Of a stretch of DNA of 64,000 nt, positions 11,835-64,000 are shown piece by piece. Every line of letters begins with the position of its first letter. Within the stretch, counting starts at the first letter, position 1. Origin of the DNA: Diplonema papillatum (taxonomy: Eukaryota; Euglenozoa; Diplonemea; Diplonemida; Diplonemidae); NCBI GenBank assembly GCA_030068145.1, contig JAPJBO010000888.1, positions 29,948 to 93,947 on the forward strand, given 5' to 3'. The notes under the pieces are model-generated. The model did no database searches, was not told where the DNA came from, and saw nothing but the letters and a program-made list of their open reading frames with translations. Position numbers and translations under genes: made by a program.

Positions 11835-12767
11835 CCAATTTCTGCTTCCCTGGAGACAGTATTTGTTACAGCTAAAAAGAACGTTGGCAGCGGTTTAACC
11901 AAATCACATACAGGTTAAATCGCACAAACAAAAATATTGCTCGTGCAGAATGGCGATTGTTCGAGACTGGTCGGGGGGTGCTTAGCAGCCAATGGCCTGA
12001 TGGCTGAGTGCACACCTAAGCAGGGCTGCATCTTCGTGTTGTAGCCGTGTTGTGTATAAGGCTTCGTGGGGGCCTGGTCAACCACCTCATCACAATAGGC
12101 GCAAACCTTTCTCGACAGTGATTGGACAGTGGGATGCCGGGGGCGGGTCTCCATGAAGAGAAAAGTAAAGCAAGACCTGCCCCCTGCGCCTGCTGTCTCC
12201 GGCTGCTTCGGCAGACGACACATACTACTACTCGGACGCCACACGAACGTCAGTGTGTGGGCGTTGCAGTGCGAGGTGTGACGTGTCAAAACAGAGCAAA
12301 CAAAAAGCAGAAATAGTTTAAAGAAAGGCATACGCAGAACCCGGATTTTTCCTGTTCTCTTTCGTTTCGACTGCTTCGGTTTTCTTATGCCGTTCGTTCC
12401 TTTTGGGCAGACACACGATTCAAACAGCCTGCGAAAAGAGTTCCTGTGCCCTGGCATTAGCGGCAAAAGCAGCCTTAATCAATAACACAGATGTAGTAAG
12501 CTTGTCCCATTTGCAGCGTTGTATATTCTTGACGACAATTGGCAGTCAAAACGCCAGAGTAAAATAAGTGGTCCCACGCATAGTCTGGATCTGGTGGACT
12601 GCACCTAGAACCTACTGGTGAAAATAACACGTGGGCCACTCTCCGCTTCAGACGCTACCCACAACTTTGAGCCACCAATCCTGCGTGTCATTCACTTACT
12701 GCACGAAGGGACGAAACACCCGGAAAGAAAAGGGGCGACATCAAAGCAAACCGCCCCCCGCCACACG
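11835..12767. other. Upstream region of first MHYT/cyclase-like gene
   Basis: No supported ORF and no TATA box I would assign. The open frame of the downstream gene extends back to 12618 without an ATG, so the region next to 12768 is probably 5' leader. Confidence 0.35.
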
Positions 12768-14756
12768 ATGAACAACCAAACGATGGGCCCGTCGACGGAA
12801 ACCGAGTCCTTGGAGATGACCTGGGACGGCAAGCTGGTCGTCGTGTCGTACCTGCTGTCGGTGCAGGCGTGCTACACGGCCTTCCTCATCCTCCAGCTGC
12901 GCTTCTCGCGGCTGTCGCTGGTGCTGGGCTCGTTATGCCTCTCGGTGTGCGGCATCTGGGGCATGCACTTCGTCGGGATGGCGGCCATGAGGATGGACGC
13001 TCGCGTCTCGTTCGACGTGGCGTGGACGGTCGTGTCCGCCGTGGTTGCCTTCGCGTGCACGACAGGCGCGTTCCTCGTCGTGGACAAGAAGATGCCCGCC
13101 GACAGCAGCCAGCTCTTCCAAGACCTGAGCCTCGCGAGCCACATCCGCGAGTTCAAACGCGCGCCGCAGGGTTGGCTCGTGCTCGCCGCATTCCTCATCG
13201 CAGCCGGGGTGTGCAGCATGCACTACCTAGGGTTGCATGCGGTGCAGACCGAGGCCACGGTGACCTACAACTACGGCGCCATCACCGCCAGCTGCGTCGT
13301 CGCGCTGCTGGCCGCCTACGCCGCCCTTTGCTTCGCGTTCGTGCTGCCCGTCACGAAGCGGTACACGACCCCGACAGCCCTCGTCGCCGGCGTCGCGGTG
13401 ACCGGCATGCACTACTGCGGCATGTACGGGTACACGTACCACCTCCCGCCGGCGGCCCGGGTCCCGCACACCAGCGACGTCGAAGGCTACGTTTTGTACA
13501 TCGTCTTCGCATGCGCCGGCACGTCTTTTTCGGTGCTCGCGTACGCGACGTACTTGTACCGCTCGAGTTTGAAGAGGGCGGCGATCCGGGCGACGGTGAC
13601 GGCGGACAGAATCATCCGCGGGAATTACTCGGTGCTCGGCGACAGCGACAGCGAGATCGAGAAGGAAGGGACCATGCGCGCGATCCAAGACGCGTATCTG
13701 CGGATGGGCCGGCAGCTGCAGCGCCTCAAGCTGTACCTGCCGCAGTCGCTGCTCGCGGTGTACGAGCAGGGCGAGGGCCTTGCCGCCGATGGCGCAGAAG
13801 TTGACACCGATACCGGCACCGAGACCGACCTCCGCTCGTCTGCCGTGTCCAAAACCAGCCAGCGCCCCTCCGGCAGCACCTCGGCCTCCGCCGCCGCGCC
13901 GGCTGTCGACGCTTCGCCGCTCGACCGCGGGGTGGCCCTGCAGAAGGTGACCGTGCTCGTCGTCAACACGCGGAAGTTCCACGCGTCCTTCGCATCCTCC
14001 CCAGCCGGCATCCCGAGGCTGCAGCACGAGTTTTTAGAGGTCGTCGGCGCGTGCGTCGCGACGTACAAAGGCATCATCGACAGCTTCCAGGGGGACCACG
14101 CCGTCTGCACGTTCAACGCCGCCAGCCCCAACCCAGGACACCCTGGCAAGTCTGTCATGGCTGCCGTCGCTATCGCAGCGAAGACCGCCGAGCGGTCGAA
14201 TTTGTCGGTCACAATGGGGATCTCGTCCGGGCTGTGCCTCGTCGGTGTCCTGGGCACGAGCAGCATGAAGCGGCTGAACGTCGTCGGCGCGACGTTCACG
14301 CAGGCCGCGGTGCTCGAGCGGCTCTGCAAGCAGTACTCGGGTGTCTCGTGCCTGGTCGCGGGGCACTGCGTCGAGGACATGGAACACGTGGTAGACCTGC
14401 AGTGCGTCGACGTGCTCAGGCTGCCCGGACGGGAGCACCTGTCGGTGCTGTTTTCGCCCGGCAGCGTGCGGAAGGCTAACCGGACCGAGGAGTGGATGTA
14501 CCAGCTCGACAGCCCGGAGGAAGGTGGCATCGTGAAGCGGATCTTCTTCTTGTACGCGAAGGAGGAGGAGGACGAGGCGCGCGCCGTCGCAGCGGCCTCC
14601 CGCACAACGTGCCTGCAGCCGCACCACGCCCGCATGCTGCACCGCCCCGCCCGGCACCACGCGTCGTACTCGCAAGGCCTCTTCTACTCATCATGCGTCC
14701 TGGGTGAAGACCCGAAAGAATTCCACAGCAAGGCCCTCGGCGGGATGATAGTCTGA
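12768..14756 (+). CDS. MHYT-domain membrane protein with class III cyclase-homology domain, paralog 1
   Basis: I chose ATG 12768 because the 662-residue product then matches the length and start of the paralog at 40395. The upstream open frame has no ATG. Seven hydrophobic segments carry three MHYT motifs: MHFVGMAAM (residue 66), MHYLGLHAV (151) and MHYCGMYGY (214). MHYT domains are predicted metal-binding sensors of small gases. A helical HAMP-like linker ends in YLPQSLL. The C-terminal domain (about 394-520) is a class III cyclase homolog. It keeps Asp in FQGDHAV (443), but the first metal Asp is Asn (VVNTRKF, residue 400), and the usual N..R pair of the late motif is T/V (GATFTQAAV). Activity is therefore doubtful. 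There are no introns. Its 3' end is repeated downstream. Confidence 0.85.
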   Translation: MNNQTMGPSTETESLEMTWDGKLVVVSYLLSVQACYTAFLILQLRFSRLSLVLGSLCLSVCGIWGMHFVGMAAMRMDARVSFDVAWTVVSAVVAFACTTGAFLVVDKKMPADSSQLFQDLSLASHIREFKRAPQGWLVLAAFLIAAGVCSMHYLGLHAVQTEATVTYNYGAITASCVVALLAAYAALCFAFVLPVTKRYTTPTALVAGVAVTGMHYCGMYGYTYHLPPAARVPHTSDVEGYVLYIVFACAGTSFSVLAYATYLYRSSLKRAAIRATVTADRIIRGNYSVLGDSDSEIEKEGTMRAIQDAYLRMGRQLQRLKLYLPQSLLAVYEQGEGLAADGAEVDTDTGTETDLRSSAVSKTSQRPSGSTSASAAAPAVDASPLDRGVALQKVTVLVVNTRKFHASFASSPAGIPRLQHEFLEVVGACVATYKGIIDSFQGDHAVCTFNAASPNPGHPGKSVMAAVAIAAKTAERSNLSVTMGISSGLCLVGVLGTSSMKRLNVVGATFTQAAVLERLCKQYSGVSCLVAGHCVEDMEHVVDLQCVDVLRLPGREHLSVLFSPGSVRKANRTEEWMYQLDSPEEGGIVKRIFFLYAKEEEDEARAVAAASRTTCLQPHHARMLHRPARHHASYSQGLFYSSCVLGEDPKEFHSKALGGMIV

Positions 14757-19895: not shown

Positions 19896-21607
19896 TCAGC
19901 GGTGTCCAGGGACGCCGTGCACCGCTCTCCACCAGAACCAGCGCTGCTCCGGGAGCCTGGTGATACAGTCGGCCTCATTCATGTCCGTAGGGACGTACGC
20001 CAACCGAAGGCAGGAACGCCTCTCAGCAAGACGATTCTCGACCAGAGTAAGCCAGCCCTGTACCGTCGCGTCTAGGGAGAACCCGCGTCGCTGCAGACCG
20101 ATAACTACCGTGTTATCACAGTCTACCTCTAAGCAAACTCCTGCCGCTTTCTGAAGCGAAATATCGACCAGCTTCCAGACCGCGAACAGTTCCTTCAGGA
20201 AGATAGGCGCTTCCAGCAAGCACCGCGGAAAGGATCCGTAGATTCCCTTTCCCTTCACCACGAAACCCCAGCCGACTCCGCTCGCATCCGACACACCCTT
20301 CAAACGGGTGCTCGGTGGAGGGCTCCATCCCATCCAGGGGTTTTGTATCATACGCGTCACGAGCAACTTCCAGCGGTCTCTCACATTGTTCGTCATGCAC
20401 ACGTTTCGGTCCCAATCCGCTTTCTGCCATGAATCTCTCTGAGTCGAGCATGATGACATCCAGCGGAGAACTTCGACAATGTCAGCCAGGGGCAGCCCGA
20501 GCGCATGCTGCCGCCAGATAAGGCATCCTGCTAGCCTCCACCAAGCCCGTATCGGGGCTACGGCCATTCCGAGTAGGGATATCGCTGGTACCCGCACTTT
20601 TTCCACCCATTTTGGGTCAAGGCAATACCTTTTGTTGTGCAGGTCCCACTTCCATCCCAACCCCGTCCCGATCTGCGCCGGCTCACTGACCTCACCAAGC
20701 ACCGTGCCGTACCTCCCGCAGAGATCTCTGTAGCGCATACACACCGCCTGTACCTCCCTCTCCGGACCTGCAAAGAAAGTGTTGTCAATCCAGACTATCG
20801 ACACCACCGACGTACCCTCCGTTGCCTCGCGCGCCATTGCCTCACCCACCGCCTGCGCCAGCTGCGGTGCTGCCCTGAAACCCATGGGTAATCGTTTCAT
20901 ACGAAACACCCTGCTCCCGATCCGGAGGCAAAAGAAGTTTCGGGTCTTCTCCGGGAGGCGAAATTGAAAGAAAAAGCTCTTAAAATCGAACGCTGCAACG
21001 ACCGCACCCCCCATGACCTTTGCCAGTATCTCCGTATACGACGGCAAGGAGCAGGGCGGTGCGGCGCGGTGTTCTGTCGCTGTATTGATACTGCGGCAGG
21101 CGAGGATAAACCGCAGTAAACCCGGCTGTGACTTCTGCACAAGAAAAGCGCTATGAAACCACCGCGCCTCATCCTGTCTCGGTATGGGCTCTACGATGTC
21201 GTAGCCCACAAGCCGCTCCAAGTGTGGGCCCAACTTTTCATTTGGTGCGCCCGTCAGCCGTCTAGCACCCTTTCCGGCGATCTGTCCCAGAAAAACCGCA
21301 TCGAGCCACGCAAAATTCAGCTGCAGGTGAGGAAAAGACTTGCAAAGACTACCCTGGTCGATACACGTCAGGGGAGAAGGTGAGATAACTCCCTCGTAGC
21401 ACGACTTGGTCCTGGTGGCGCTGCTACCTCCAACATGCCTCAACCACGTGTCGACGTAGTCATATGTCCGCACCAAGCTGAGCAGACTCTTCGGCCAGCA
21501 TTGGATCCGCTCCTTGCCGAGTACGATTCTCAAGGGAACTGTTATCTCGGGACAGCCGGCCGGGTGAAGCGGACACTCTACCTCAACACCAAGGTCAACG
21601 GGAGCTG
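19896..21607 (-). CDS. Reverse transcriptase/RNase H of the PAT-like element
   Basis: The ORF is open on the minus strand back to 22604, but only the part after about 21600 looks functional. Upstream it overlaps the recombinase in another frame. RT motifs: ERLVGYDIVEPIPR, RFILACRSINTA, motif A AFDFKSFFFQF, motif B RLPMGFRAAPQLAQ, motif C VWIDNTFF. RNase H follows with GVSDASGVGWG, LKELFAVW, VDCDNTVVIG and a terminal Asp in PTDMNEADCITRLP. Motif C has Asn where YxDD has its second Asp. No ATG opens the RT part, so expression by frameshifting or reinitiation from the recombinase ORF is likely (inference). The ORF ends shortly before the terminal repeats. Confidence 0.8.
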
Positions 21608-22366
21608 TTACAAGAGGGCCGACAGAGCGCTTCTCGTCCCCGCTACAGGTGCCCATGTCTCCATCGGAATATACCTGCGGGTTGATTCCCTGTTCTTGTG
21701 CCGTCCTGCGAGGACGGCCGCCTCCTCTCCAAACTTGCTCGCCACCTCGGTGAGTGCTGCATGTCGGACTTTGTGCGACGTCATGCGTAGGTGTTTCATC
21801 AGAAACGCGTTGTACGCCGCCCGGTTTAGTCCCGGCAGCAGACTGTCGTCCTGAGAGAGTGCCTTCTGGGCACCCCACTCGACGACTGTCCTCAAGAACC
21901 GGCTGTTGTTCGGGACCATCAGCCCCTGACCAGTGCCTCTCCTGTCCGTTTTCCCTCCGATGTACACTATCAGAGTGCACTCGGGCTTTTGGATCAGGTG
22001 TCTGACCTTGATTCTGTGCAGGTCGATGAACCGTGCAGCCGTACACCATTGTAGTGCCAAGGCCGCGCTGTGTACCTGGGAGTTCTGCCCCCTGACTACA
22101 GCCCATATCGCTGTCGACCCGGGCAGGTTGTCGTGGATTGCGATCTGCCTTTCTCCTTGGTCGACATTGTCCGTCAGGGACTTTTTGAAAGCCGCTGTAG
22201 ACTCGATCTCCGCCATGGCTTTGTACGTCAGGTACTGCATGGCTGATCTGCTGGAGATCTCTCCGTTCTCTAGTTTCCGTGTAGCCCACATCAGAAAACT
22301 GAAGCCCGGCGAAATTTCTGGGTGGAGGGTTCTCACCCGCTCCGAGAACAGACGAGCCCTTTTCAT
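21608..22366 (-). CDS. Tyrosine recombinase of the PAT-like element
   Basis: The 252-residue ORF starts at ATG 22366. The frame stays open about 165 bp further upstream without another ATG, so the N terminus could be longer. The catalytic set is visible: first Arg in CTAARFIDL, H-x-x-R in SHKVRHAALT, the last His in LAGRHKN, and Tyr in STRRYIPM, the pattern of phage-integrase-type recombinases in DIRS, Ngaro and PAT elements. The enzyme would insert the circular DNA copy. It lies upstream of the RT, the reverse of the usual RT-then-recombinase order, and overlaps the RT frame. No stop or frameshift interrupts it. Confidence 0.82.
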   Translation of the reverse strand: MKRARLFSERVRTLHPEISPGFSFLMWATRKLENGEISSRSAMQYLTYKAMAEIESTAAFKKSLTDNVDQGERQIAIHDNLPGSTAIWAVVRGQNSQVHSAALALQWCTAARFIDLHRIKVRHLIQKPECTLIVYIGGKTDRRGTGQGLMVPNNSRFLRTVVEWGAQKALSQDDSLLPGLNRAAYNAFLMKHLRMTSHKVRHAALTEVASKFGEEAAVLAGRHKNRESTRRYIPMETWAPVAGTRSALSALL

Positions 22367-22715
22367 GACCGATATTTTGGGGCCCGCGTCCTTGTACGCC
22401 CGTATCAGACGGTTCGACGTGCGTTGGCATAAGGCCGGTACCTCCTCGGGGTCTACCTCGTAGTCCCGCTTTCGCGGCCGGAAGGCTTCGATGAGGCCGT
22501 CGAAGACTCTCTCCCCCGAGTTTGCGACTTTCAGTCACTTTTTTGCCACTTTGGCCCTCGGGTACTCCGCTCCCTTCCCAGCCCCGCGCTTCCTGCTCTA
22601 TCACCAGGACGAAACCGTTCGCGCTCTCGGTTCAGAGGCTGCCGTCCTGAGGGCCCAGATGGCCAGCCTGATGGCACTCAACAACAGCCTCCGACAGAGG
22701 CTAGACGAGCAGCAA

Positions 22716-35572: not shown

Positions 35573-38062
35573 ATGAGTGATTCCGAGCTCCGAGTCACGT
35601 GGCGGGAGAACCTGGTGGTGGCTTCGTGCTTGCTGTGTGCGCAGGCGACGTACGCGGCGCTGCTCGTGCTCCAGATGCGGCACTCGTGGCTGACGGGGTT
35701 GCTCGGCTCACTGTGCCTGTCCGTGGGTGCTTCGTGGTGCGTGTCCGTCCTGCTGCACGCGGCCATGCAAGTGGACATCGGAATCACGTACCACCTGGGC
35801 TGGTCCATGCTCGCTGTCGCGGTGGAAGCATCGTGCACTTTCGCCGCCCTCGCGGTGGTTGATCGCAAGGTCCCCCGGGCCGTCGAGGTTGCCGCGGGAG
35901 TTTCGAGCCTGCGGGCGCACGTGGCGGTCGTGAAAAGGGCGCCTTGGCGTTGGCTTCTCAGCGCCGGCTTGCTGATCGCCGCCGGCATGCTCGGCAGGCA
36001 CTGTTTGTCCCTCGTCGCCCTCCAAACCGACGCCTCGGTCGCCGTTGACTACGGGAAGGCCGGCATCTTCTTCGCCCTTGCCTACCTCCACGCCCTGGTC
36101 TTCATCAACCTCTCTTTCGTGCTCCCCGCCGCCCGCAGGCGGACGAGCCCAGCTGCGCTGGTGGCGGCGGCGATCCTCTGCGCGACGATCTTCCAGGCCC
36201 AGAGCTCCGTCTTGTTCCGATCCGACGCGCCCCATCTGCAGTCGGGGGCCAGGGCGACGTATTTGCGGGCCATCCAAACGTCGTTCCTCGGCCTCACCGT
36301 GTGCTTCGTGTCTGTGGCCTACGCGGGGTATTTGTTCAAGGCGAAGCTCTCCCGCGCCATGACCCAAGCCACCGAAGCCGCCACGCACATCGCGAACGGC
36401 GACTACTCTGCGCTGTCGAAAGAAGTGAAGAAGCTAGGGGACGGCAACGACGTCGACCCTTCGGCCACCGCCCTGCGAGCGGCGTACGTGAGCATGGGGG
36501 CGCAGCTGCACAGGCTCAAGACGTTTCTGCCGCCTGCGTTCTTGGCGAGCCTCGCGGAACGCATGGAAGCAGAAGACGAGCCATTGACCACCGGCGAGTG
36601 TGACCCGAGGGAGGACAAACCCGGGCATTCAGGCGGCAGGCGCTCGACGGTGTCGAGCATCCTCTTCTCCCATCGATCCAGCCGGTCGAACTCATCAAGG
36701 AGCTTGGGCACGGTGAGCAGTGCGTGTTCAATGGTGATCGAAGAGCTGGGCATGCCGGGGACCCAGCATTCGAGCCGGAAGGTCGCGATCGTCGCGTTCA
36801 ATCTCCGGGATTTCCACGACTTGTTCGACGACTTCGCGGGGCTCGCCGAGTACCAGCAGAAAGCGTTGGACCTCCTCAGCCACTGCACGACCAGCAACCG
36901 CGGGATCGTCGACATGTTCCAAGGGGACCACGCGTGCTGCACGTTCAACGCCGTGCGGACCAGTCCGGCGCACACGACGAAGGCGGTCACGATGCTGTCC
37001 ATGTTCAACGAGGCCTGCGGGAGCACCCTTCGAAAAGCCGCTAGCTTCGGAATTTCAAACGGGACGTGCGTCGTCGGATTTTTCGGTACCTCGAACATGA
37101 AGAGGTTCAACGTGATCGGACCGGCGTACGGGCAGGCATTCGTCCTCGAAAGCCTGTGCAGGCAATACAAGGCAGTCTCCAATTTGCTCCCTTCCTGCGT
37201 CTACGACGAGGTCGACTCGTTGATGCCTGGCCGGTGTGTCGACGTCGTCAGCCTGCCAGGGTATCCTGCACCTTCCGTCGTGATGACCCTGTCTTTCACG
37301 GGAAGAGCTAGCACCGGGGACAGCTGGATGTACGACTTGAGGGGCCCGCGAGCAGATGCGGCAGTTCGTGGAATTTACGAGCTGTACGCCGGCGAGCAGG
37401 AAGCGGCGGCCAAGGAGATGTACGAAGGCTGCGGCACCATGGCGTTCGATCCCGCAGCGGTGGCGATGTTGGACAAGCCCGTGGCAGAGCACGCTGGGCG
37501 AGATCAAGGGCGTTTCTACGTGTTGAGCATTCTGAAGCAGGATCGCCCGGAGTTCTGCTACCAACGCCCCGTCAGCGAGGACCCCGTCTCACCTGCTCTC
37601 GCCGCCAAAAGGTCTATAAGAAGCAGGCTCTCTACCAACAGAGCATCGTCGCAACTATCCCTGCTCACTCCTTCAGAAGCAGCTACGAACCGGTTCAAGC
37701 CAATCCACTCGGCGTCTGCGTCGTCCCTGTTTTCCCACACATCCGGCGGCTGGCAAAACCCGAAGCTTTCGCAGCAGGCCGGGAAGCTTCTGACTTCGCC
37801 GAAACTGATGGCCCCGCGCCTGTCGCAGTCGTCGTCGCAACCCTCGCTCGTCTCGCAGTCGACGGCCAGCTTCCGGTGGCAGTCGCAGACTGGTGTGCTC
37901 CTTTCGCCGGGGTCGCCGGCGGGGGGCGAGACCACCGTGCGGACCTCTTTGACCCTTTCGTCGCGGTCGTCGATCCAGACCCACTCGTCGAACAAGCCGT
38001 CGCAAGGGCTTGACGCCATGCACTTGCAACCCGACTATCCACGCCAACCCCACATACACGAG

Positions 38063-38097
<35 letters not shown>

Positions 38098-38953
38098 GGC
38101 CAGGTGCTCGCTCGAGTCTTCTTCGGAACCTGGAGCGCAGGTGATGCAGTCGTCTGACGGTTCGGAGTCGTCAACGCCGTCTGTTCGATCGTCTGTGGTG
38201 GCTCTGTCGTCACACTCCTCGATCCGAACCCTTCACTCGTCGATGACGTTGACTGTCGCCGAAACGCAGGAAGCCGCTCGGCCACTCCCGCCGTCTCTGC
38301 AACAAGAAACCCAAACACAACTGCCAACACAACCACAGCTTCATTCACAACCGCATCAGCCGCAAGCAGCACAGCCGCCGCAACCCCAAATGCAAACACA
38401 GCGGCGTCAAAAGCGTCGGCATCACATTCCACACCCACAGCACCGACGACAGAAACACCACCAGCACCACCAACAGCAATACGAACAACAAGGTCAACAC
38501 CAACAAGAGCAACATCAACAATCCACTCTTTCGGCCTCACCGCTTCCTTTGCTTTTTCGTTCACCACAGTCGCGCGCCCTACAACTGGCGCCTCTCGACG
38601 GGGCAGAAACATCGTCTGCAGGACAAGAGCTTCCGGCATCCCGCCCATTGGTGGACCACCGCCGCCAACACCATCAAGAACAACATCAACAACCAGGGCA
38701 AGACCAACAGCGCGAAGGCCACCGCCAACAAGAGCAACAGCAACGTCAACACCAGCCATCTACTCCTTCTGCCTCACCGCCTCCTTTGCTTTTACATTCA
38801 GCACAGTCGCACGCCCTGCAACTGGCGACTCTCAACGGGGCAGCAACTCCACAAGAGCTTCCGGCAAGCTGCCCCTTGAACCGCCGCACAGACGCGAGTT
38901 TACCCCCACAGAACGCACTGCCGAACTGCAGCGAGGATGAGCACGAAGGGTAA
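35573..38953 (+). CDS. MHYT-derived membrane protein with cyclase-homology domain and Gln-rich tail, paralog 2
   Basis: 1126 residues from ATG 35573. The first ~620 align in layout with paralogs 1 and 3: seven membrane segments, HAMP-like helix ending LKTFLPPAFLAS, then cyclase-homology domain. The three MHYT motifs are lost: the first reads VSVLLHAAM, the second GRHCLSLVA, the third has no recognisable remnant. In the cyclase part the first metal Asp is Asn (AFNLRDF, residue 410), Asp 452 remains in FQGDHAC, and the late N..R positions are altered (GPAYGQAFVLE). About 500 extra C-terminal residues are Ser-rich, then Gln/His/Pro-rich with 11 consecutive Gln (near residue 831). The membrane domain may be retained as a scaffold after loss of sensing (inference). 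Confidence 0.82.
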
Positions 38954-40394: not shown

Positions 40395-42380
40395 ATGGAC
40401 AACGCAACGACAACCCTCGTCCTCCTTGAGGAACCCGAGCACCTCACTTTGACGTGGGACGGGCCGCTCATCACGGCATCATACCTTCTTTCCGCGCAAT
40501 CGTGCTACACAGCGATCCTCATCTTACAAATGAAGTTCACGAAGTTCACCATCGTCATCGGCTCGTTCTGCCTCTCCGTGTGCGGCATCTGGGGCATGCA
40601 CTTCACCGGCATGGCTGCTATGCAGATCAACACGAGCGTCGATCTCAACATTGGATGGACTATCGCTTCAGCCATCTTTGCGTTCGCCTGCACGACGATT
40701 GCATTTCTCATCGTAGATGCCAAGATGGTAACCGAAGGCGGGTCCATCGAAGAAGACATAAGCGTCGAGGCGCACATTAAAGCTATCGTCAACGCACCGA
40801 ATGGCTGGATTGTCTTCTGCGCCGCTCTGATCGCCGCTGGCGTGTGCTCGATGCATTACGTGGGCATGCATGCTTTGGAGACACCAGCCGAAATCCGCAT
40901 GGACAGCGGCATCATCACCGCGTCTTGTCTGATTGCTTTGTTCGACGCATACGCCGCGTTGAATTTTGCGTTCGTCCTCCCGATCACGAAGAAGTACACC
41001 ATCCCGACAGCACTCGTGGCCGCGGTGGCAGTGTGCGGCATGCACTACAGTGGCATGTATGGTATTAAGTACTACCTCCCCAGGTCGCAGTGGACTGAGT
41101 CGACGAATGTAATCAAGGAACGCGCAGTTGAGATTGTGTTTGGATGTCTGAGCCTTTCGTTCATCTCGCTCGCGTACTCAACGCATCTGTACAAGCTCAA
41201 GCTCCGGGAGGCGGCCATCAATGCGACGGTGATTGCACAGCACATCATCGACGGGAACTACGAGGTTCTGACAGAGTTGGGCGAGGTCGAGAAAGACCCC
41301 GTCATGCGAGCCATCCAAGAAGCATATCTTGCCATGGGCACGCAGTTGCAACTGCTGAAGTCGTTTCTTCCTCAATCGTTGCTCGCCCAGTTCGAAGGGG
41401 AAGGCACAGAAGGCGACACCGACGAAGATGCTCAGGGTTCGGAGAAGAAGTCGGGAAGGAATCCGTCGATCAACCGCGACAACGTGTCTAAGAGATCTTC
41501 ACTGATGTCCCGGAAAGGCCGACAATCGCTTATCCACAACTCCGCAGGGGAGCCTGTTGGCGTTCTTGCAGAGAAAGGGGTCACCCACCGCAAGGTTTCG
41601 GTCCTCGCGTTCAACGTGCGCGGCTTCAACAACACAATCCGCTCGCCGGCCCTCATGATTGAGCTGCAAAGGACGATGCTCGAAAGCTTGTTCACGAACG
41701 TGTCGGTTCAAAAGGGCATTGTGGACAGCTTCCAGGGGGACCACGCGATCTGCACCTTCAACGCGGCCAAGACAGCGCCCGGTCACTCGCTGAAGGCGGC
41801 ATCGGCCACGATGACGTTTTTGAAGTCCATCAGCAACCCTGACGAGGTGACCATTGGCATTTCGAGCGGAATGTGCGTCGTCGGTGTGATGGGAACCAAA
41901 GGCATGAAACGATCGAATGTAGTGGGCCCGGCGTTCACGCAGGCCGTGGTGCTGGAGAGGCTGTGCAAACAAGACGACACCACAAGGAACCTGCTGCCGT
42001 ATTCATGCTTCGAAGACATTGAACACCACATGACCGCAACTCCCGTGGACGTTCTTCGTCTTCCAGGCGCAAAACTGCCATGCATGCTTCTCACCCTGAC
42101 CGGGTTGAAAGCTGCAGCTGACAATTCAGAGTGGATGTACGAGCTTGAAGCATCGACAGCGCCTAGTCACTTACTGGATGTCTACACTCTATACGCGCAG
42201 GGGCAGGATGAAGACGCTTTGCGTATGGCGCTGTCCTTGGACGTCTTGCGGCACAGCGCTCGCGTCATGACCATGGTGCGAACGCCACTCGAAGAGCACA
42301 CCACGGATTCGCAAGGCAAGTTCTATCGTTTGTCGGTGCTGAAAAAATACGACGCGGCTTTGAAGGACAACGTGGCGTGA
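40395..42380 (+). CDS. MHYT-domain membrane protein with class III cyclase-homology domain, paralog 3
   Basis: 661 residues from ATG 40395, intronless and closest to paralog 1. MHYT motifs are intact: MHFTGMAAM (residue 68), MHYVGMHAL (153), MHYSGMYGI (216), within seven membrane segments. The HAMP-like linker has LKSFLPQSLLAQFE. The cyclase-homology domain has Asn at the first metal position (AFNVRGF, residue 407), Asp in FQGDHAI (449), then GISSGMCVVGVMGT and GPAFTQAVVLERLC, lacking the usual catalytic Asn and Arg. The product is expected in a membrane with the C-terminal domain cytosolic. It may sense a ligand through metal at the MHYT His residues, but whether it makes a cyclic nucleotide is doubtful. 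GC content is lower than in paralog 1. Confidence 0.88.
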   Translation: MDNATTTLVLLEEPEHLTLTWDGPLITASYLLSAQSCYTAILILQMKFTKFTIVIGSFCLSVCGIWGMHFTGMAAMQINTSVDLNIGWTIASAIFAFACTTIAFLIVDAKMVTEGGSIEEDISVEAHIKAIVNAPNGWIVFCAALIAAGVCSMHYVGMHALETPAEIRMDSGIITASCLIALFDAYAALNFAFVLPITKKYTIPTALVAAVAVCGMHYSGMYGIKYYLPRSQWTESTNVIKERAVEIVFGCLSLSFISLAYSTHLYKLKLREAAINATVIAQHIIDGNYEVLTELGEVEKDPVMRAIQEAYLAMGTQLQLLKSFLPQSLLAQFEGEGTEGDTDEDAQGSEKKSGRNPSINRDNVSKRSSLMSRKGRQSLIHNSAGEPVGVLAEKGVTHRKVSVLAFNVRGFNNTIRSPALMIELQRTMLESLFTNVSVQKGIVDSFQGDHAICTFNAAKTAPGHSLKAASATMTFLKSISNPDEVTIGISSGMCVVGVMGTKGMKRSNVVGPAFTQAVVLERLCKQDDTTRNLLPYSCFEDIEHHMTATPVDVLRLPGAKLPCMLLTLTGLKAAADNSEWMYELEASTAPSHLLDVYTLYAQGQDEDALRMALSLDVLRHSARVMTMVRTPLEEHTTDSQGKFYRLSVLKKYDAALKDNVA

Positions 42381-55528: not shown

Positions 55529-56767
55529 AGAATTCGACCACCCAGCCTCCAAAAACCGTACATCAGCATCCGCACGCCGCAACCGCCCGACGGCTCACCG
55601 AAACATCCACCCGGGAGAACCTCGCCGCAGTCTACGTCGCCGCACAAATCCGAACCCACCAGCACTACGCACCCTGCGACGAAACCAACAAACCCACCTG
55701 GACGCAACGGCATAACGAACATTCGCAACTCATGTTTCTTCGCCGCCAGCGTGCAGTTCCTGGCGCGAAGGACGTCCTTCCGACTACAACTCGCAAACCT
55801 AACGCACCTGGACACCAACCAGCAGATGGTGCAGAGGCTGTTCACGGAATTCGACGCAGGCCAAAACATCCACGGTACAATGGCCACACTCCGGAGCCTC
55901 GTGTTCAACACGACGGCAGACGACTCCGCGCATCGGGACGTGCACGAACTGCTGACGTGGATACGCTCCTGCGTGACGGGCGACGACGACGACCAAGCTA
56001 CGGTGACATACTCCCGTTTGACAACGTGCACAATATGCAAAGAGTCTTCACGAGCATCGCCGGCGTCAGAACCGTTCCTGATGCTTGAACTCAAAAACAG
56101 GGAGAAGCCCTACACCGAGTCAGTTGAGGATCTGATAAAGAAAGTGCAAAACAAGAGAGCAACCAAAGTGGACGACTTCCCCAATCTCCTTTCTTTCCAA
56201 AGTATCACTGCCAACGCTAGTCCGCCCAAGGGAAACAAAGGCATACTTAGCCAGCAGCACTCCCAATATACGGTCAAGCGAGTCATAACCACAATCATTA
56301 CTCTGACCCGAAGGCAAAACCAGCGAAACCCGGAAGTGTTGAACAACCTTCCCAACGCCCACCGTTTGACCGTCGCCTTCCACCAAAAGGAAAAAGAAAA
56401 AAACTCCGACACCAACCCCGCCTATCGACCGGATCAACAATCCACGCAGCGCAACGGAGACGCTTCCGCCCACGTTAAACCACCTTCTTCTACCGTCGAT
56501 AGATCTACGAAGTTAACCAGAACGAATCCGCAAACCTCACAACTAATGCCACAACCTAACCATCGGCAGTTTCCACAGCGCATCTTCAGAGGAGTTACAC
56601 ACTTGCTGGACCCCTTGCACTTCAATACCTGCATACATACCTCCAGCAGTACCAAACACCTCTTGTACAATGCCGCCGCAACACCCATCTTCCCTTTCAC
56701 CACGTCACCTTGTCATGTAAACAACATCTGCCCTCACATCCTCTCCCCGTGTACCAACAATCAATAA
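55529..56767 (+). CDS. Ubiquitin-specific-protease-like ORF, 5' incomplete
   Basis: The frame is open from 55529 to the TAA at 56767 (412 codons), with no ATG before the catalytic region. It contains NGITNIRNSCFFAASVQFL, matching the Cys box of ubiquitin-specific proteases (GxxNxxNxCfxxaxxQ; Cys at 55733-55735). RDVHELLTWI resembles the QDAHEFL box, and CTICKE and FLMLEL resemble the start of the zinc-ribbon region. NNLPNAHRLTVAF may be the later LPxxLxxxL strand. I cannot find the His box, and the tail after about 56400 is low-complexity. It may be the 3' remnant of an upstream tandem copy of the retroelement next to it, a separate ORF of that element, or an exon of a spliced gene. Confidence 0.5.
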   Translation, partial: RIRPPSLQKPYISIRTPQPPDGSPKHPPGRTSPQSTSPHKSEPTSTTHPATKPTNPPGRNGITNIRNSCFFAASVQFLARRTSFRLQLANLTHLDTNQQMVQRLFTEFDAGQNIHGTMATLRSLVFNTTADDSAHRDVHELLTWIRSCVTGDDDDQATVTYSRLTTCTICKESSRASPASEPFLMLELKNREKPYTESVEDLIKKVQNKRATKVDDFPNLLSFQSITANASPPKGNKGILSQQHSQYTVKRVITTIITLTRRQNQRNPEVLNNLPNAHRLTVAFHQKEKEKNSDTNPAYRPDQQSTQRNGDASAHVKPPSSTVDRSTKLTRTNPQTSQLMPQPNHRQFPQRIFRGVTHLLDPLHFNTCIHTSSSTKHLLYNAAATPIFPFTTSPCHVNNICPHILSPCTNNQ

Positions 56768-57568
56768 AACTCCTCCCAGGTCGAACCCCCGGTCGAAACA
56801 CGGAATTTGAGGGTACAGCCAAAATAAAATACAAGCATAGGGATGCACCAGCTATGCATGACGGACCCAGCGATCTATATATCCCGCACCTTCAAACTCG
56901 GTCATATGATGAAGGAGCCGCCGTGGGAGAAGGCTGACCGTCATGGTCGAGGCCACACTTTCCGTAATTTCCACCGCCTTCAAAGGGGTCCAAGCTCCTA
57001 CAACCACGCATCTCTCGAGGAAGTACACGGTCCACGTTCACTTTTCACACAGGCCTTCTAACAACAGCCAACATATTCCGACACACAGCAGCTATCAAAG
57101 ACCTACGTCCTAAGTAAGAAGACAGCCAATCTCCACAGCAGCGTGACCGACAAAGCTTAACTATACGCAGTAGACCGCAGCATACCACAGAACGTACAAC
57201 CTCCCCACATCCAGCGAAAGCCCGCAGACAACGCATCACGCAGCGACCTGAACTCCCAACCCCACACACCGTCCGAAAAGTCTGTTAGACCACAATAGGG
57301 GAACGTAGCATGCATACGTGACCCCGGGGTCAGGGTCCAAGCGCAACATTAAAACCGCAGGACAGCCGTTCATCTCGCCTCGTAGCGTTACAACTACGAC
57401 CTCCTCGCTGCCAAGGAACCGCCGACTCCTTGGGCATAGAAAACTAGGTGATCGAAGATGGGGTTCCCGGATGGCCCGGTACAACCATCAACGATCTTTC
57501 GGAGAGAAAAGCCATCCACAGCATACGCTGCTCCAAAGCCAATACCTGTATGGCGTCACCCTATTTAG
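56768..57568 (+). other. Non-coding spacer within the strand-skewed segment
   Basis: It has the same A/C-rich plus-strand composition as its neighbours, but all frames are broken by stops (for example TAA at 56825 and TAG at 57566-57568, the last stop before the giant ORF). It could be the 5' leader or the pseudo-LTR region of the element. Confidence 0.4.
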
Positions 57569-57919
57569 GGACAGGACCTCGGTACTTGTACCACTAAAGT
57601 CAACAAAGTAACACTCGGTGCGCGGCGTACCTTTAAAAACACCAATCAATCCAATAGAAGTAAACAGTTGTCAAAACGCAAAATAACTCCAACCCTCCTA
57701 AACGTACGGGAGATCCTCGCAGACGCAGCAACGCACGCAACAGTTAGAACAGCACGACGCGCGCACAAGTCCAAGCGCAAAGAAACAGAACGGATAAACA
57801 CCCGCTACAACCATGCTGAAAACCGAAAAGCGGCACATACCGTACCTACTCCGTGCTCACCACGACGCACCAACGACGACTCGCCGCTACCCACATACCA
57901 CGAAGCACTTATCCAACGC

Positions 57920-60900
57920 ATGAGCACCCAACAGCGCGAACCACCAACCGCACGACTCACAGAGGCAGCGCCTACTAGCCCTACGCCTACGAAGAGCACC
58001 CGCAGCAATACGAAAAGCTCGTTCTCGAAAAGACGCACAGCTCCCGCACCACATAACCAGCGATACGCTACAACGAACACGCCCGCCAGTAACTACGCAC
58101 AGGCTCTACGTTCACTGTACTTCGACACACCTCCATCAGCAGACTCCACCCTGGACACCGACGAAACTTACGAACCACAACCTTACATCAACACCCACGA
58201 TACATACCACTCACAACCTTACATACCAAGATACGTAACTACACCTGCTCTCGTCACGCCACACGTCTCGACGAGCACCGACGAAACATACGAACCACAA
58301 CCGTACCAACCACCTAACCTCATTAACATCTCACCCAACACGAACCGACGTTCAAGCATAAACTCCAACGACACGTACCTCCAACGACCATATTCTTCAA
58401 ACCACGAGACTTCTCCCGCGCACACGACCCGACACTCGTCTACGAACACCGACAGGACATACGAACCACAACCATACCTACTAACTAGCCGCACACAAGC
58501 CATCAGCATTTCACCCAACACGGACAAACGTTCAAGCACCAACTCCAGTGACACGTACCTCCCACGGCCATACCTTTCAAACCACGAGACTACACCCGTG
58601 CGCACGACCCGACAATCGTCAACGAACACCGACAGAACATACGAACCACAACCACTACCAACTAACCGCGCACAAGCCATCAGCATCTCACCCGACACGG
58701 TCCAACGTTCAAGCATCAACTCCAGCGACACGTACCTCCCACGACCATATCTTCCAAACCGCAAGACTGCACCCGCACGCACAGCCCGACACATGTCTAC
58801 GAACACCGACAGAGCATACGAACCACAACCATATCTACCAACTAGCAGCGCAGAAACCATCCGCATCTCACCCTACACGAAGCAACCCTCAACCACAAGC
58901 TCCTGCGACACATACTTCCCACAACCATATGTTTCAAACTACGCCCACTCGGACCAACACTCTTTCACGAACTCCGAAAGAACTTACAAACCGCGACCGT
59001 ACTTACCACCCTTCCACGCACAAGACACCAGCATTTCACCCAACTTAGACCAGACCTCATCCCACAGCTCTTACGACACTTACCACCCACACCCCTACGT
59101 CCCAAACCACAAAACCACACCCCCCAGCAGGACGCGGCATTTAACTCCAGGTACCGACAAAACATATAAACTACAACCGCACGTACCGCACGCCTGTCAA
59201 AGGGTCATCAGCATATCGCCTTGCACAGATCAACCCCCACTGCTCAACTCACAAGACAATTACTCCCCACGACCTTTTACTCCCAACTTCGAAATCACAC
59301 ACCCGCACTCAGCGCAGCACGCAGCACCGGGCATCGTTGAAACATACGAAACGTACGTAGCGCCCACCCCCACAAGTAGTAACTTCCCAGCCGACTTCCA
59401 ACACGACGTCTCATACACCGAACGCATCCCAAACATCCCACGGCCACACATGCCGTACTACGGGTCTCCCACCCCTGCCACGATGAGACGTCCCACCTCC
59501 ATCCTCAACGAAACGTACAAGCCACGACACCAACCACACATCGACTACCCAACACCCGACATTCATCGACGCTACCCACAACAATCCGCACTCCCTCCAG
59601 CAGTGCCGACCATCACACTCCGAACTATACCTCCCCCAACCCTCCACACACCTCCGAAACTAACTAACACACGACCCACTACGGCATTCCTACTCCCACC
59701 CACACAATACGGTCTCCGACATCCACCACCAACGCTGAATACACTCGTACTCCCTTCACACCAACCTTATACATCACAACCGAACAAACTACACCAAAAC
59801 CTCACATTCAAACCACCACAAGACGTACGGACCACACAACACAGCACACCAACACAAGAGAACCCCCGACCAGTCACCCACCTCAACGACACACACTTGA
59901 AGTACAAGCTCAAACAGAACGCCATCGACCCAAAAGAAGCAGACCGTCCAGAATTTAAGCGAAACCCGTTCCTCACATGCTTTCGCACTAAAGCGAAATA
60001 CAATTACGGGAAACAGTTCTGGGCCGCGTATGACACCAAACGACGAGAAGCGCAGGTCGTGTTCTTCACCAAACAACACAAGCAGCTACACAAGGGATGG
60101 AAGAACCAGCAGACCGACAAACCAGCACACTCCGACCAAGGAGTAGTCTACGCCCTTATAGACGAACGCGGAAACGTCAAATACGTCGGGCAAACCAAAG
60201 GTACCGCTGAGGATCGTCTGAAATCCCACTGGTATCAACGCCGCAACAACACACCCATCGCCAAAGCTCTTCTGAAACGGGACTTTCCCCTCTACGCGAT
60301 ACCGCTCGAGAAAGTTCCAATCAACGAGCACGCCACAAACGACGAATTCCGGAGACAGGCACTTCCGAGAGAGAACTGGTGGATTTCACACTTCCAACCC
60401 ACATACAACGTCCAACGACATATCAGAAACGCCACTACACGCCCCAGGAAAAGCAGAAAACGTTCCAATCAACGCCACGAACGAACGAAAAACGCACCAA
60501 AAGTCGAAAAGTGGGCATGGTTGGAAGACGGAAAACTGCGGATCAACCTCACTACCGAAGCACGAGCATTCTCAATCAGGAGCCAACTACACCACCTGGT
60601 AAACCTCAGCGACAAAGACCTCACCGGCTACAACTTCGACCTTATGGGACGCACACGGATCAAGCGGCTTCTTAACTGGCTAATCGCACACGCACCTCGC
60701 ACCAATTTGCCACCTACCGTCACAGCACTCGAAAAAAGCCTAAAAGATCGACTCGGGGAGATAACACTCAACAAAGTAATAAAAGACGACGGAGCACCAG
60801 CAAGGCTCATAATCACACACGGCAGTGAACACATCAACTCGCTACGTTTACACGACATCCTACAACAACCGGCGATTAAACGCGCTTGCCCAAAAGAAGA

Positions 60901-63900
60901 GATACTACAGCGCACCAAAATCTCTTTCCGACTGAACCCCCCACTCTATCTTAGGCTACAAAACGTAACACAGATCAGCAAGGAACTGCCTGACATACCA
61001 CTCCCTAAACCAGAGCACTGCGCATGTCACAGATACAACTCCGGAAAAACGATCAACGGCCACGCCATAGGCTTCCTCTCAGCAATTACGAAAGAAAACG
61101 GGCTTTCGGAAATCGTCAGCAGAGGCAGAAAGTACAGATGCTACCAGAGCCACCACGCTCTGACCGAAACGCTACACGAGGCAATAGAGGAGTACGTACA
61201 GACATACTACCCCGCAGGCAGTGACACAACCTCATTCGAAACGGAGCTCAAAGCCGAAATATCACGAAGAATGGCGGCTCTACCACCTTCAGACGACGAG
61301 AAATTGAATACAAAGGCCACAGCCGAACTAGCTGTCATTAAACAACACCTGGTCATCTTACCAGTAGACAAAACAACGCACGATTTTGGATACTGTTGCA
61401 AAGCCCAATACACACACGCGCTACGACAACAACTCGACGCAAACGAAACATACGAGAAACAAACGATCACAAAAACAGAAGTAGAGAGCAACCACAAACG
61501 TATAATGGCAGAGCTCGACCTACCGTTCCACAAGGGACTACCACACCTCTACGGCTCCATAAAATTACACAAAGCAGAACCATCTTTCCGTTGGATAGCC
61601 GGTGTCGCCGCAGAAAAAAACAAAAAGCACCGCAACACAAAACGCGAGGCACCCAAAGCAACCCTCACAAATGCCCACCTCGAACTATCAGGCCTATTGA
61701 AAAGCGTGATGAAAGCCCTCAAACGAAAAGACGAACTCAACTTCCGCCGTACAGGAATCAAACGTGTATGGTTTACAGAAGGACCAGACGACATCACCCT
61801 GCACATAAAGCAGAACCTCACCCGCCTCCGATACAAAATCCCAACTACACACGACTTCGAGGACATGTACACAAGGCTACCTCAGGACAAGATAGTGGAA
61901 GAAGTATGCGAAGCGATCGAAGAAGCTTTCGAATTCGAAGAACAGAACGGCAACCCTAACCTAACACGTGGAGCGAAACAGAAAGGCAAGAAAACCTTCA
62001 CCTTCAGTCGGCAGACGAACGACACGAAGCGCGCATACTCCAGAGAAGCAGTCAAAGAACTACTTGCAATCATTATCGGTAACAGCTACATAGCACAAGG
62101 CGATCAAGTACTCAGGCAGACCGACGGCATACCTATGGGCGGTAATGCTAGCTCGGATATAGCAAACCTTTTCTGCTATCGGATCGAGAAAGCATACGTA
62201 GACAGCCTCGTAGATGAAGGAAAGATCGAAGAAGCGAAGGCACACGCACACACCTACCGCTTCATCGACGACTTCCTCAACTTCGGGACCACACCACCAC
62301 CGCAGCACCTTTACAACATGCGGTACAAAAACACAACTACAGCACACGACGACGTAGTATTTCTCGGAGTCCGGATACGCGTCGAACGTCCGGATCCTCC
62401 CCACGCACCGCACATCCGCCTCACAATACAACCGAAAAACTACGGGACCCGCTATACCCACCATTTAACAACGGCTCCCAAGGCGCAAGCGAGCGGGATT
62501 TTCAAGGGCTCGCTGATACGAGCAATCCGACAAACGAACCACCTACAAGACCTGCGTGTAGAAATACAGAGGAGCGTATATGCCATGATCGACAGAGGTC
62601 ACAACCCACGGGTACTATACGCACCCTGGAACGCATGGCTCACAGAGGAATTCGGCAACCTGCCACGACTCCACAGCCAGCTCAAGCCGTTCCTTGGATT
62701 CTGCGTAGCCCGGCACAAAAAACGCCAACCACGCATCAACGAACCGGAGTTCGCCGGCAAACACAGGCCAACCAACTTCTTCCCGGCCCACTTACCGAGC
62801 GAATCACCATCCTCCGTTGACTCTCCATCACAACCCACACCCGAATTAACCGTCACGGAACGAGTAGCCAGCCTCGTTGCAACCATCACCATCGCCGCAG
62901 CAGTAGCAGCCAAAACGAAGCGGAAACACCCACAGCAACTTCACAAATACACGACAAGAAACTCTTGCTTCCTGCAAGCGTCGCTAAACCTCATAGCAGC
63001 GACACACTTGTCAAATCAAATACGCAAGTACAACGACTGTCCACAACACCAAACAGGCCCATGCACACAAGACGTGAACGAATGGATAAGCGGCAGGAAA
63101 ACCCAAAACGTCGTCCAAAGGCTCTTCGAGCACATGGGCACACACCTCGGCGACGGAGAACAACACGACCTAGAAGAAGCCTTACTTCAACTACTCGCTG
63201 CGATAGCGAACGAAAACGAAGAACACCGCACGTGCCAACCAAACTGCAGCGACGCCTTCAACGAATTATTACACCTACAGACGACAACAATCCATTGCAA
63301 CAACTGCGGCTACATCAAAACAGAAGATCAACCCTACAGCATGACAATCCTCGCAATACAGGCCAGCACCGCTCAAGGATGTCTGGACAGTTTCTGCAAG
63401 AAAAGCACCCCCAAAGATTACAGATGTGACAAGTGCAAAAAGACAAAGACAGCAGAAACGCAAACCAGTATCCGAGCAGCACAAGACACATTACTACTGT
63501 GTCTTAGACGGAACGAGTTCGCAAACGAAAATCGAACCCCGGTGGCAGCTGATCCCACCCTCAACATTCCGGACCACGAACACAAATACGAACTCCAAGC
63601 CGTTATAACACACACAGGAAGAGAGAACGCCGGCCACTACACCATCCACAAACGTAACCGCACCCCTTTCACAGACCAAAACTGGACACATTACAACAAC
63701 GAAACCACCTCACACTCCCGGGAACCTACGTACACAGACAACGCCACGTACATGTTCCTGTACACGAAAGAAGACACCACCGACACAGACCCTACACAAA
63801 CACTCGAACTGCTCGAAGAATTGCGAGGGGACACCCCTACCTCAGACGACGAGACCTCATCCGAAGAAACAACACAGCATGAAGGAACGCTGATTTGGGC

Positions 63901-64000
63901 ATGCCCAGCCTGCAAAGCAACTACCACGGACGCAGGCAACAAGTTCAAAGGCGCCAAAGGCCTCCGTACACACATGCTTCACTGCAAAGAGATGACTCTA
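57920..64000 (+). CDS. Giant retroelement protein: repeats, GIY-YIG nuclease, Penelope-like RT, USP-like protease, C2H2 (incomplete)
   Basis: The frame is open from 57569 to the window edge; the first ATG is 57920, giving at least 2027 codons. In order: a Ser/Thr/Tyr/Pro-rich region with ~59-residue repeats (TYEPQPY...SSDTYLPRPY); a GIY-YIG nuclease at 60143-60411 (VVYALIDERG, VKYVGQT, AEDRLKSH, RENWWISHFQPTYN) with the expected Tyr, Arg, Glu and Asn; a reverse transcriptase with motif A HDFEDMYTRLP (~61850), motif B QTDGIPMGGN (~62120), motif C RFIDDFLNFG (~62260); a ubiquitin-specific-protease-like domain with Cys box TRNSCFLQASLNL (Cys 62966-62968), EQHDLEEALLQLL, CNNCG and CDKCKK zinc pairs and His box NAGHYTIHKR (His 63635-63637); then a C2H2 finger CPACK...HMLHC (63902-63990). 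RT and N-terminal GIY-YIG suit a Penelope-like element. Confidence 0.8.
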   Translation, partial: MSTQQREPPTARLTEAAPTSPTPTKSTRSNTKSSFSKRRTAPAPHNQRYATTNTPASNYAQALRSLYFDTPPSADSTLDTDETYEPQPYINTHDTYHSQPYIPRYVTTPALVTPHVSTSTDETYEPQPYQPPNLINISPNTNRRSSINSNDTYLQRPYSSNHETSPAHTTRHSSTNTDRTYEPQPYLLTSRTQAISISPNTDKRSSTNSSDTYLPRPYLSNHETTPVRTTRQSSTNTDRTYEPQPLPTNRAQAISISPDTVQRSSINSSDTYLPRPYLPNRKTAPARTARHMSTNTDRAYEPQPYLPTSSAETIRISPYTKQPSTTSSCDTYFPQPYVSNYAHSDQHSFTNSERTYKPRPYLPPFHAQDTSISPNLDQTSSHSSYDTYHPHPYVPNHKTTPPSRTRHLTPGTDKTYKLQPHVPHACQRVISISPCTDQPPLLNSQDNYSPRPFTPNFEITHPHSAQHAAPGIVETYETYVAPTPTSSNFPADFQHDVSYTERIPNIPRPHMPYYGSPTPATMRRPTSILNETYKPRHQPHIDYPTPDIHRRYPQQSALPPAVPTITLRTIPPPTLHTPPKLTNTRPTTAFLLPPTQYGLRHPPPTLNTLVLPSHQPYTSQPNKLHQNLTFKPPQDVRTTQHSTPTQENPRPVTHLNDTHLKYKLKQNAIDPKEADRPEFKRNPFLTCFRTKAKYNYGKQFWAAYDTKRREAQVVFFTKQHKQLHKGWKNQQTDKPAHSDQGVVYALIDERGNVKYVGQTKGTAEDRLKSHWYQRRNNTPIAKALLKRDFPLYAIPLEKVPINEHATNDEFRRQALPRENWWISHFQPTYNVQRHIRNATTRPRKSRKRSNQRHERTKNAPKVEKWAWLEDGKLRINLTTEARAFSIRSQLHHLVNLSDKDLTGYNFDLMGRTRIKRLLNWLIAHAPRTNLPPTVTALEKSLKDRLGEITLNKVIKDDGAPARLIITHGSEHINSLRLHDILQQPAIKRACPKEEILQRTKISFRLNPPLYLRLQNVTQISKELPDIPLPKPEHCACHRYNSGKTINGHAIGFLSAITKENGLSEIVSRGRKYRCYQSHHALTETLHEAIEEYVQTYYPAGSDTTSFETELKAEISRRMAALPPSDDEKLNTKATAELAVIKQHLVILPVDKTTHDFGYCCKAQYTHALRQQLDANETYEKQTITKTEVESNHKRIMAELDLPFHKGLPHLYGSIKLHKAEPSFRWIAGVAAEKNKKHRNTKREAPKATLTNAHLELSGLLKSVMKALKRKDELNFRRTGIKRVWFTEGPDDITLHIKQNLTRLRYKIPTTHDFEDMYTRLPQDKIVEEVCEAIEEAFEFEEQNGNPNLTRGAKQKGKKTFTFSRQTNDTKRAYSREAVKELLAIIIGNSYIAQGDQVLRQTDGIPMGGNASSDIANLFCYRIEKAYVDSLVDEGKIEEAKAHAHTYRFIDDFLNFGTTPPPQHLYNMRYKNTTTAHDDVVFLGVRIRVERPDPPHAPHIRLTIQPKNYGTRYTHHLTTAPKAQASGIFKGSLIRAIRQTNHLQDLRVEIQRSVYAMIDRGHNPRVLYAPWNAWLTEEFGNLPRLHSQLKPFLGFCVARHKKRQPRINEPEFAGKHRPTNFFPAHLPSESPSSVDSPSQPTPELTVTERVASLVATITIAAAVAAKTKRKHPQQLHKYTTRNSCFLQASLNLIAATHLSNQIRKYNDCPQHQTGPCTQDVNEWISGRKTQNVVQRLFEHMGTHLGDGEQHDLEEALLQLLAAIANENEEHRTCQPNCSDAFNELLHLQTTTIHCNNCGYIKTEDQPYSMTILAIQASTAQGCLDSFCKKSTPKDYRCDKCKKTKTAETQTSIRAAQDTLLLCLRRNEFANENRTPVAADPTLNIPDHEHKYELQAVITHTGRENAGHYTIHKRNRTPFTDQNWTHYNNETTSHSREPTYTDNATYMFLYTKEDTTDTDPTQTLELLEELRGDTPTSDDETSSEETTQHEGTLIWACPACKATTTDAGNKFKGAKGLRTHMLHCKEMTL
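58150..59180 (+). repeat. Coding tandem repeat, ~177-bp unit, about six copies
   Basis: ACCGACGAAACATACGAACC-type segments recur near 58150, 58279, 58450, 58630, 58808, 58978 and 59155. Between them are ATCAGCATCTCACCC and TCCAGCGACACGTACCTCCC. The protein repeat keeps Tyr, Pro and Ser positions, indicating it is translated. Confidence 0.8.

Follow-up and report, generated by a model that had tools for sequence, protein, structure and literature searches.

The end of contig 888 of the 271-Mb assembly of Diplonema papillatum, a marine unicellular flagellate (positions 29948-93947, a stretch of 64,000 nucleotides referred to here as the window, which ends where the contig ends) carries a copy of a retroelement, family A, whose single long reading frame joins an N-terminal GIY-YIG nuclease, a telomerase-like reverse transcriptase (RT) and a ubiquitin-specific protease (USP) domain. 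Sequence and fold comparisons suggest that family A is probably a recently active Penelope-like element (PLE) with an N-terminal endonuclease; it contains the USP as a stable module under selection, which would serve deubiquitination during the element's cycle. The features of the window copy are:

56176-64000, + strand: family A Penelope-like element, 5'-truncated copy, delimited by alignment to 19 other copies
57569-64000, + strand: open reading frame, first ATG at 57920; the equivalent of its stop would lie at ~64201, beyond the window
57920-59905, + strand: Pro/Tyr/Ser-rich N-terminal region with repeated 'DTYxPxPY' units, read in translation
60140-60409, + strand: GIY-YIG nuclease (GVVYAL, KYVGQT, R, E and N motifs), Pfam PF01541 at 1.9e-05, above the cut-off
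61013-61033, + strand: CxC motif EHCACHR in the nuclease-RT linker, from motif and alignment
61319-62803 (approximate), + strand: telomerase-like reverse transcriptase (DFEDMY, GIPMG, FIDD), from an AlphaFold model and comparison with the PDB
62954-63763, + strand: USP domain, C19 (Cys in RNSCF, EQHD, two CxxC, His in AGHYT, Asn in WTHYNN), Pfam PF00443 at 8.4e-14
63896-63985, + strand: first C-terminal C2HC-type zinc finger (WACPAC...LRTHMLHC), by motif only

The frame is open from 57569 to the end of the window, as the initial annotation had it, and reaches 2,210 codons (2,093 counted from the first ATG) in the three long copies of the family. It encodes, from the N to the C terminus, Pro/Tyr-rich repeats (a region that is probably disordered), GIY-YIG, the CxC linker, RT, USP and two C2HC fingers; the contig end removes the last 66 codons of the window copy together with the stop and the 3' untranslated region (UTR)/pseudo-long terminal repeat (pLTR), and the second finger, present in other family A copies, lies beyond the window. 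Both Cys residues of the linker CxC are invariant across three aligned families. The RT was recognized by its fold, for which TERT is nearest when the AlphaFold model is compared with the PDB, and the Pfam profile RVT_1 scores just 0.1 on the family A frame. The combination of N-terminal GIY-YIG, Penelope-like RT and peptidase C19 proposed earlier is upheld by profile, fold and family comparison alike. A C-terminal finger had also been proposed and is present, although it reads, by motif only, as C2HC rather than C2H2.

The protease itself, which had been assigned to peptidase C19 at 62930-63760, is matched by the Pfam UCH profile over positions 6-254 of 254, that is, over the entire catalytic domain (8.4e-14), and by USP15 in a phmmer search of the PDB (1.3e-7). 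The Cys box, acidic box, CxxC pairs and GHYT described before are all there, as RNSCF, EQHD, two CxxC and AGHYT. USP46, USP12 and USP15 are the fold matches of the AlphaFold model in the PDB, and the catalytic domains of USP12/USP46, USP15 and USP1 are among the nearest solved by sequence or fold (~15-20% identity); these are cellular enzymes, which differ from family A in having no RT or nuclease. Modeling the USP alone, without an alignment, was uninformative (pLDDT 35).

Copies of the element are numerous and alike. With the protease DNA as query, 40 of 110 candidates were scored and all 40 places, the window included, are ~100% identical; 19 of them were fetched as other copies. Across these 19, the reading frame differs by 28 point changes and one 1-bp deletion (in matches of at least 200 bp), and the USP by one singleton change and no frameshifts; L012 and L027 are additionally disrupted upstream of the USP by a partial duplication or insert. 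A protein-level search with family A, in which 33 of 2,216 candidates were scored, gave 31 places without a stop, 13 with the whole 2,210-codon frame and 32 that run through the USP, the remaining one (L035, on C160) having the USP after a frame break. The few stops and intact frames in the 33 scored copies therefore point to recent activity, and speak for a young family. The 3' terminus CTAATCCA(C/T)AAATAACGC was found in 16 of the 19 fetched copies, the exceptions being L017 and L018, which run out of sequence, and L019, which diverges at the C run. Left borders are variable: three of the 19 copies extend upstream of 56176 with common sequence and 16 stop, at 15 distinct points (L016 and L018 have an identical border and flank). 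In all three long copies the 3' end is repeated at the 5' end as a pLTR, of 585-597 bp in C743 and C1279 and ~720 bp, estimated from cross-matches, in C1724. The pLTR is a trait of PLEs (PMC11167929, available text).

The fusion extends beyond family A. A genome scan with the UCH profile (PF00443), in which 149 of 935 candidates were scored, gave 34 hits at 87-206 bits, apparently host genes for USPs or exons of such genes, along with 112 dispersed hits at 76.5-85.9 bits and three partial ones. The dispersed hits have variable open frames and equal or near-equal scores (54 at 85.3-85.9 bits, 41 at 76.5 and 17 between). Two of them, read fully, belong to family B (L039, 1,562 codons) and family C (L040, 1,585 codons), both with the order GIY-YIG, CPC, RT, USP and one C2HC-type finger. 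Their UCH match covers positions 2-240, with the canonical NLGNTCF...QHDAHE...SGH...FDD. Identity between A and B is 31% over 960 residues of nuclease and RT and 22% over the C-terminal part (USP and finger). The order seen in the window thus recurs both in other family A copies and in B and C; a chance fusion confined to this copy is not borne out, and chance fusion in general, misassembly or one odd copy was rejected on the multiple intact copies and the other families with the same order. In a protein search with family B (31 of 1,259 candidates scored), 27 of the 112 dispersed hits match long stretches of B at 98-100% identity, all but one of them without a stop, and four more places, 68% identical to B with 1,590-codon frames that match through its USP region, form a further family. 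The remaining dispersed hits presumably belong to such families. Apart from the two read fully, ~110 dispersed USP hits are thus apparent copies of USP-bearing retroelements, with several such families in one protist genome.

Two more families were found among predicted proteins. Family E comprises P0012 and P0014, which carry UCH, and P0013, which carries GIY-YIG, matches P0014 at 99.6% identity across 566 residues and comes from a gene model that omits most of the USP; family F is P0020, with UCH. Neither E nor F has a C-terminal finger. GIY-YIG is above the Pfam cut-off in A, B and P0013, with family C just under it (22.4 vs 22.6), and a CAC or CPC stands between nuclease and RT in P0002, P0009, P0010 and P0013. 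Annotated gene models for these elements are unreliable: P0014 is annotated 'Ubiquitin carboxyl-terminal hydrolase 26', a caution that a gene so named can be part of a retroelement. The public models P0011 and P0016-P0019 fuse these RTs with other proteins, and P0011, as we read it, apparently joins the RT of family B to that of another retroelement.

Purifying selection on the protease, named earlier as what would support the reading if several copies showed it, is evident between families B and C. The ratio of nonsynonymous to synonymous divergence (dN/dS) is 0.11 for GIY-YIG, 0.11 for the linker, 0.08 for RT, 0.15 for USP (p 1e-31) and 0.20 for the C terminus, compared with 0.64 for the spacer, the sole region not distinct from neutrality (p 0.16); these ratios are rough because dS is 1.2-2.9. 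Within family A, four copies were each compared with a single common intact reference, giving USP ratios of 0.32 for L032 (93% identical, p 8e-4) and 0.32 for L033 (92%, p 2e-5), both of them older copies, 0.48 for L034 (p 0.39) and 0.21 for L035 (p 0.05), with the catalytic Cys, His and Asn unaltered in all four. Other family A domains range from 0 to 0.79, the high values arising from small numbers of changes or from decayed copies; for the short spacer the ratio is 2.57 (L032) and 0.52 (L033). The comparisons indicate that the fusion is old and maintained by selection.

Relatives in other records carry other deubiquitinase folds. A protein database search with the three-family alignment, in which 8,000 candidates were scored, found 17 relatives, which surfaced only with this alignment and not with single-sequence searches; a scan of viral contigs gave no match, and NCBIfam gave none for P0002 and chance-level ones only for P0004. 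Behind the RT, P0026 has an OTU domain (3.5e-9, with DGDC and GGHY) and P0027, which represents 169 member sequences to P0026's one, has a JAB/JAMM domain (1.2e-5, with ETMG and HTHPGHVPVLSALD) plus DnaJ; we take DGDC/GGHY and ETMG/HTHPGHVPVLSALD to be the active-site words of OTU and JAMM, respectively. No protease was above the Pfam cut-off in P0022 or P0025. In a tree of 11 RTs, P0026 and P0027 join P0025; A, B/C, E/F, P0022 and P0023 are not resolved, with four long branches and no support for a single USP origin. P0023 contains CGWAALN, DGWFSLQVLNMA and THFIVALV at residues ~400-580, and its C-terminal part resembles, as we read it, a Josephin domain; this was not confirmed, Pfam giving a weak Longin match only and the PDB no match.

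In the mechanism we favor, the element protein would bind its own RNA, the GIY-YIG domain would nick the target, and the telomerase-like RT would prime at the nick and copy from the RNA 3' end, a reaction modeled on that of PLEs; copying from the 3' end would therefore leave 5'-truncated copies and pLTRs. The C-terminal USP would then remove ubiquitin during the cycle. Most likely it would either shield the ribonucleoprotein from ubiquitin-dependent degradation or, anchored at the nick by the C-terminal fingers, deubiquitinate chromatin or repair proteins at that site; self-protection seems slightly ahead of the target-site role, without a firm choice between the two. Because the folds found behind related RTs are unrelated and have nothing but ubiquitin-type cleavage in common, the ubiquitin-removing activity itself is probably what is selected, and the OTU and JAMM relatives make ubiquitin removal, by whatever fold, more likely as the role. 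A broader proposal, to which we give slightly less than an even chance, is that retrotransposition in a PLE branch found across protists has deubiquitination built in as one of its steps, different lineages of the branch having acquired deubiquitinases of three or more unrelated folds (USP, OTU, JAMM and perhaps the Josephin-like P0023) behind the RT, probably against host ubiquitin marking of the element protein or of its target.

Several observations weigh against this interpretation. The TERT matches have low Foldseek TM-scores (0.22-0.31 by query), and the AlphaFold model is of low quality over the USP, with blocks of pLDDT 29-67. The comparison of B with C shows the USP diverging faster than the nuclease and RT, and within family A the synonymous and nonsynonymous changes in the USP number 3 vs 5 in L034 and 4 vs 3 in L035. 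As a single query, family A finds no relative in the protein database, and the OTU and JAMM fusions, as seen in protein records, are putative elements. Target duplications were sought in 14 truncated copies, 13 with the end in reach and all with short right flanks. Flanking direct repeats of 27 bp (L027) and 30 bp (L016) were found, but no clean duplication in 11 of the 13: L015 has a 14-bp flank match inside a local repeat and the ten others no flank match of more than 9 bp. The three long copies likewise lack a clean duplication, a 21-bp match in C1279 lying in a local repeat. Finally, while the catalytic Cys and His are present in all five families, the third triad residue is Asn in A and F and Asp in B, C and E, and the position five residues before the Cys, where USPs have the Asn of the oxyanion hole, is Thr in A and Asn in B, C, E and F. 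The family A USP may therefore be weak or only bind, and deubiquitinase activity is less sure for the window's own family; the oxyanion Asn bears on activity and is not counted here as defining C19 membership.

These two substitutions are what favors the first alternative, that a noncatalytic USP fold is retained to bind ubiquitin or nucleosomes and so to steer integration to ubiquitinated chromatin. Pseudo-enzyme USPs exist, yet Cys, His and Asp are retained in B, C and E, and unrelated catalytic folds with their active-site words stand behind the relatives' RTs, which makes binding alone an unlikely account. Less probable again is a protease that matures the element's own polyprotein in retroviral style, freeing the RT from the fingers or the N-terminal region: one long polyprotein with a low-conservation spacer before the protease would suit it, but USPs cleave after the ubiquitin tail, Pfam finds no ubiquitin-like domain in the family A frame, and the domains that relatives carry, OTU and JAMM, commonly act on ubiquitin-like substrates. 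That the USP is a functionless passenger, a host gene piece captured by chance fusion or transduction, is largely refuted and very improbable: retroelements do capture host exons, some of the 34 stronger UCH hits are perhaps exons of one gene and the models P0017-P0019 join these RTs to host-like proteins, but the same fusion occurs in families as far apart as A and B, with catalytic residues retained, a much lower dN/dS than the adjacent spacer and an intact USP in young copies.

Deubiquitination by a selected module, the reading preferred here, sets these families beside several known systems. N-terminal EN+ PLEs (Chlamys/Naiad) are defined by a nuclease upstream of the RT with a CxC motif between them. 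Family A shares with them the N-terminal GIY-YIG, CxC linker, telomerase-like RT, pLTRs and the absence of a hammerhead match in Rfam; it differs in the USP and C2HC fingers after the RT, the long Pro/Tyr-rich N terminus and the diplonemid host. We know of no protease in the Chlamys or Naiad groups, which are reportedly presented as N-terminal-endonuclease PLEs by Craig et al. 2021. No named Chlamys or Naiad sequence was among the protein search matches. Dualen non-LTR elements encode a cysteine protease. Helentrons have an OTU cysteine protease (PMC6431247, available text); both resemble family A in carrying a deubiquitinase-type module in a large element protein, and differ in protease fold and element class. 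Canonical Penelope/Poseidon elements share an RT with GIY-YIG and pLTRs from tandem or partial-tandem copies, but their endonuclease is C-terminal and the available text mentions no deubiquitinase (PAc, PMC11167929). In Ginger1 DNA transposons an OTU or Ulp1 domain stands at the C terminus, and a Trichomonas protein joins transposase_11 to peptidase C19; these are ubiquitin or SUMO proteases, C19 included, in mobile-element proteins, but beside DNA transposases rather than RTs, and the authors who described Ginger1 suggested for DNA transposons a role in DNA repair, akin to the target-site role considered above (PMC2836005, available text). Deubiquitinase-type modules are thus already known in DNA transposons (PMC2836005, PMC6431247), and no deubiquitinase in a PLE was found described in the literature searched, which left out most subscription papers. 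What is added here is an old, selected RT-USP fusion, shared by several families that were recently active in the same genome; relatives have deubiquitinases of other folds. The part of the ubiquitin system in transposition, an old suggestion, thereby becomes directly testable in a free-living protist, and diplonemids join the hosts of telomerase-related retroelements. In the main text, as available, of the D. papillatum genome paper (PMC10161547), 'Penelope' and 'ubiquitin' have no mentions.

The window copy is itself a nested insertion, lying inside the USP of a piece of family E:

55535-56182, + strand: family E remnant, also USP-bearing (RT end and first part of the USP), from tblastn with P0012 (97.7% identity to its residues 538-753)

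Rfam gave 57 matches at E values up to 1; all fall short of their gathering scores, and none is a hammerhead ribozyme in the 3' UTR/pLTR. A 93-nt stretch of the 3' UTR/pLTR (L020:9678-9770) contains CTGACGA and GAAAC and folds better than shuffled sequences (z -2.7; 3/200 equal); a regular-expression check found these core-like words without the hammerhead arrangement, and the stretch is possibly the RT's recognition structure. The sequence ACAGTTTCTGTACT(A/T)TATTG, presumably the spliced-leader core, occurs 624 times in the genome and its reversed control not at all; the surrounding context, as we judge it, fits a diplonemid leader. Elsewhere in the window are three alike intronless host genes (12618-14756, 35573-38953 and 40395-42380), two with MHYT sensor domains and a third in which none matched; the region after these domains reads as cyclase-like. 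Two further RT reading frames, at 2253-4649 (+) and 19896-22604 (-), belong to other retroelements and match RVT_1 at 2e-9 and 5e-6 (just below the cut-off).

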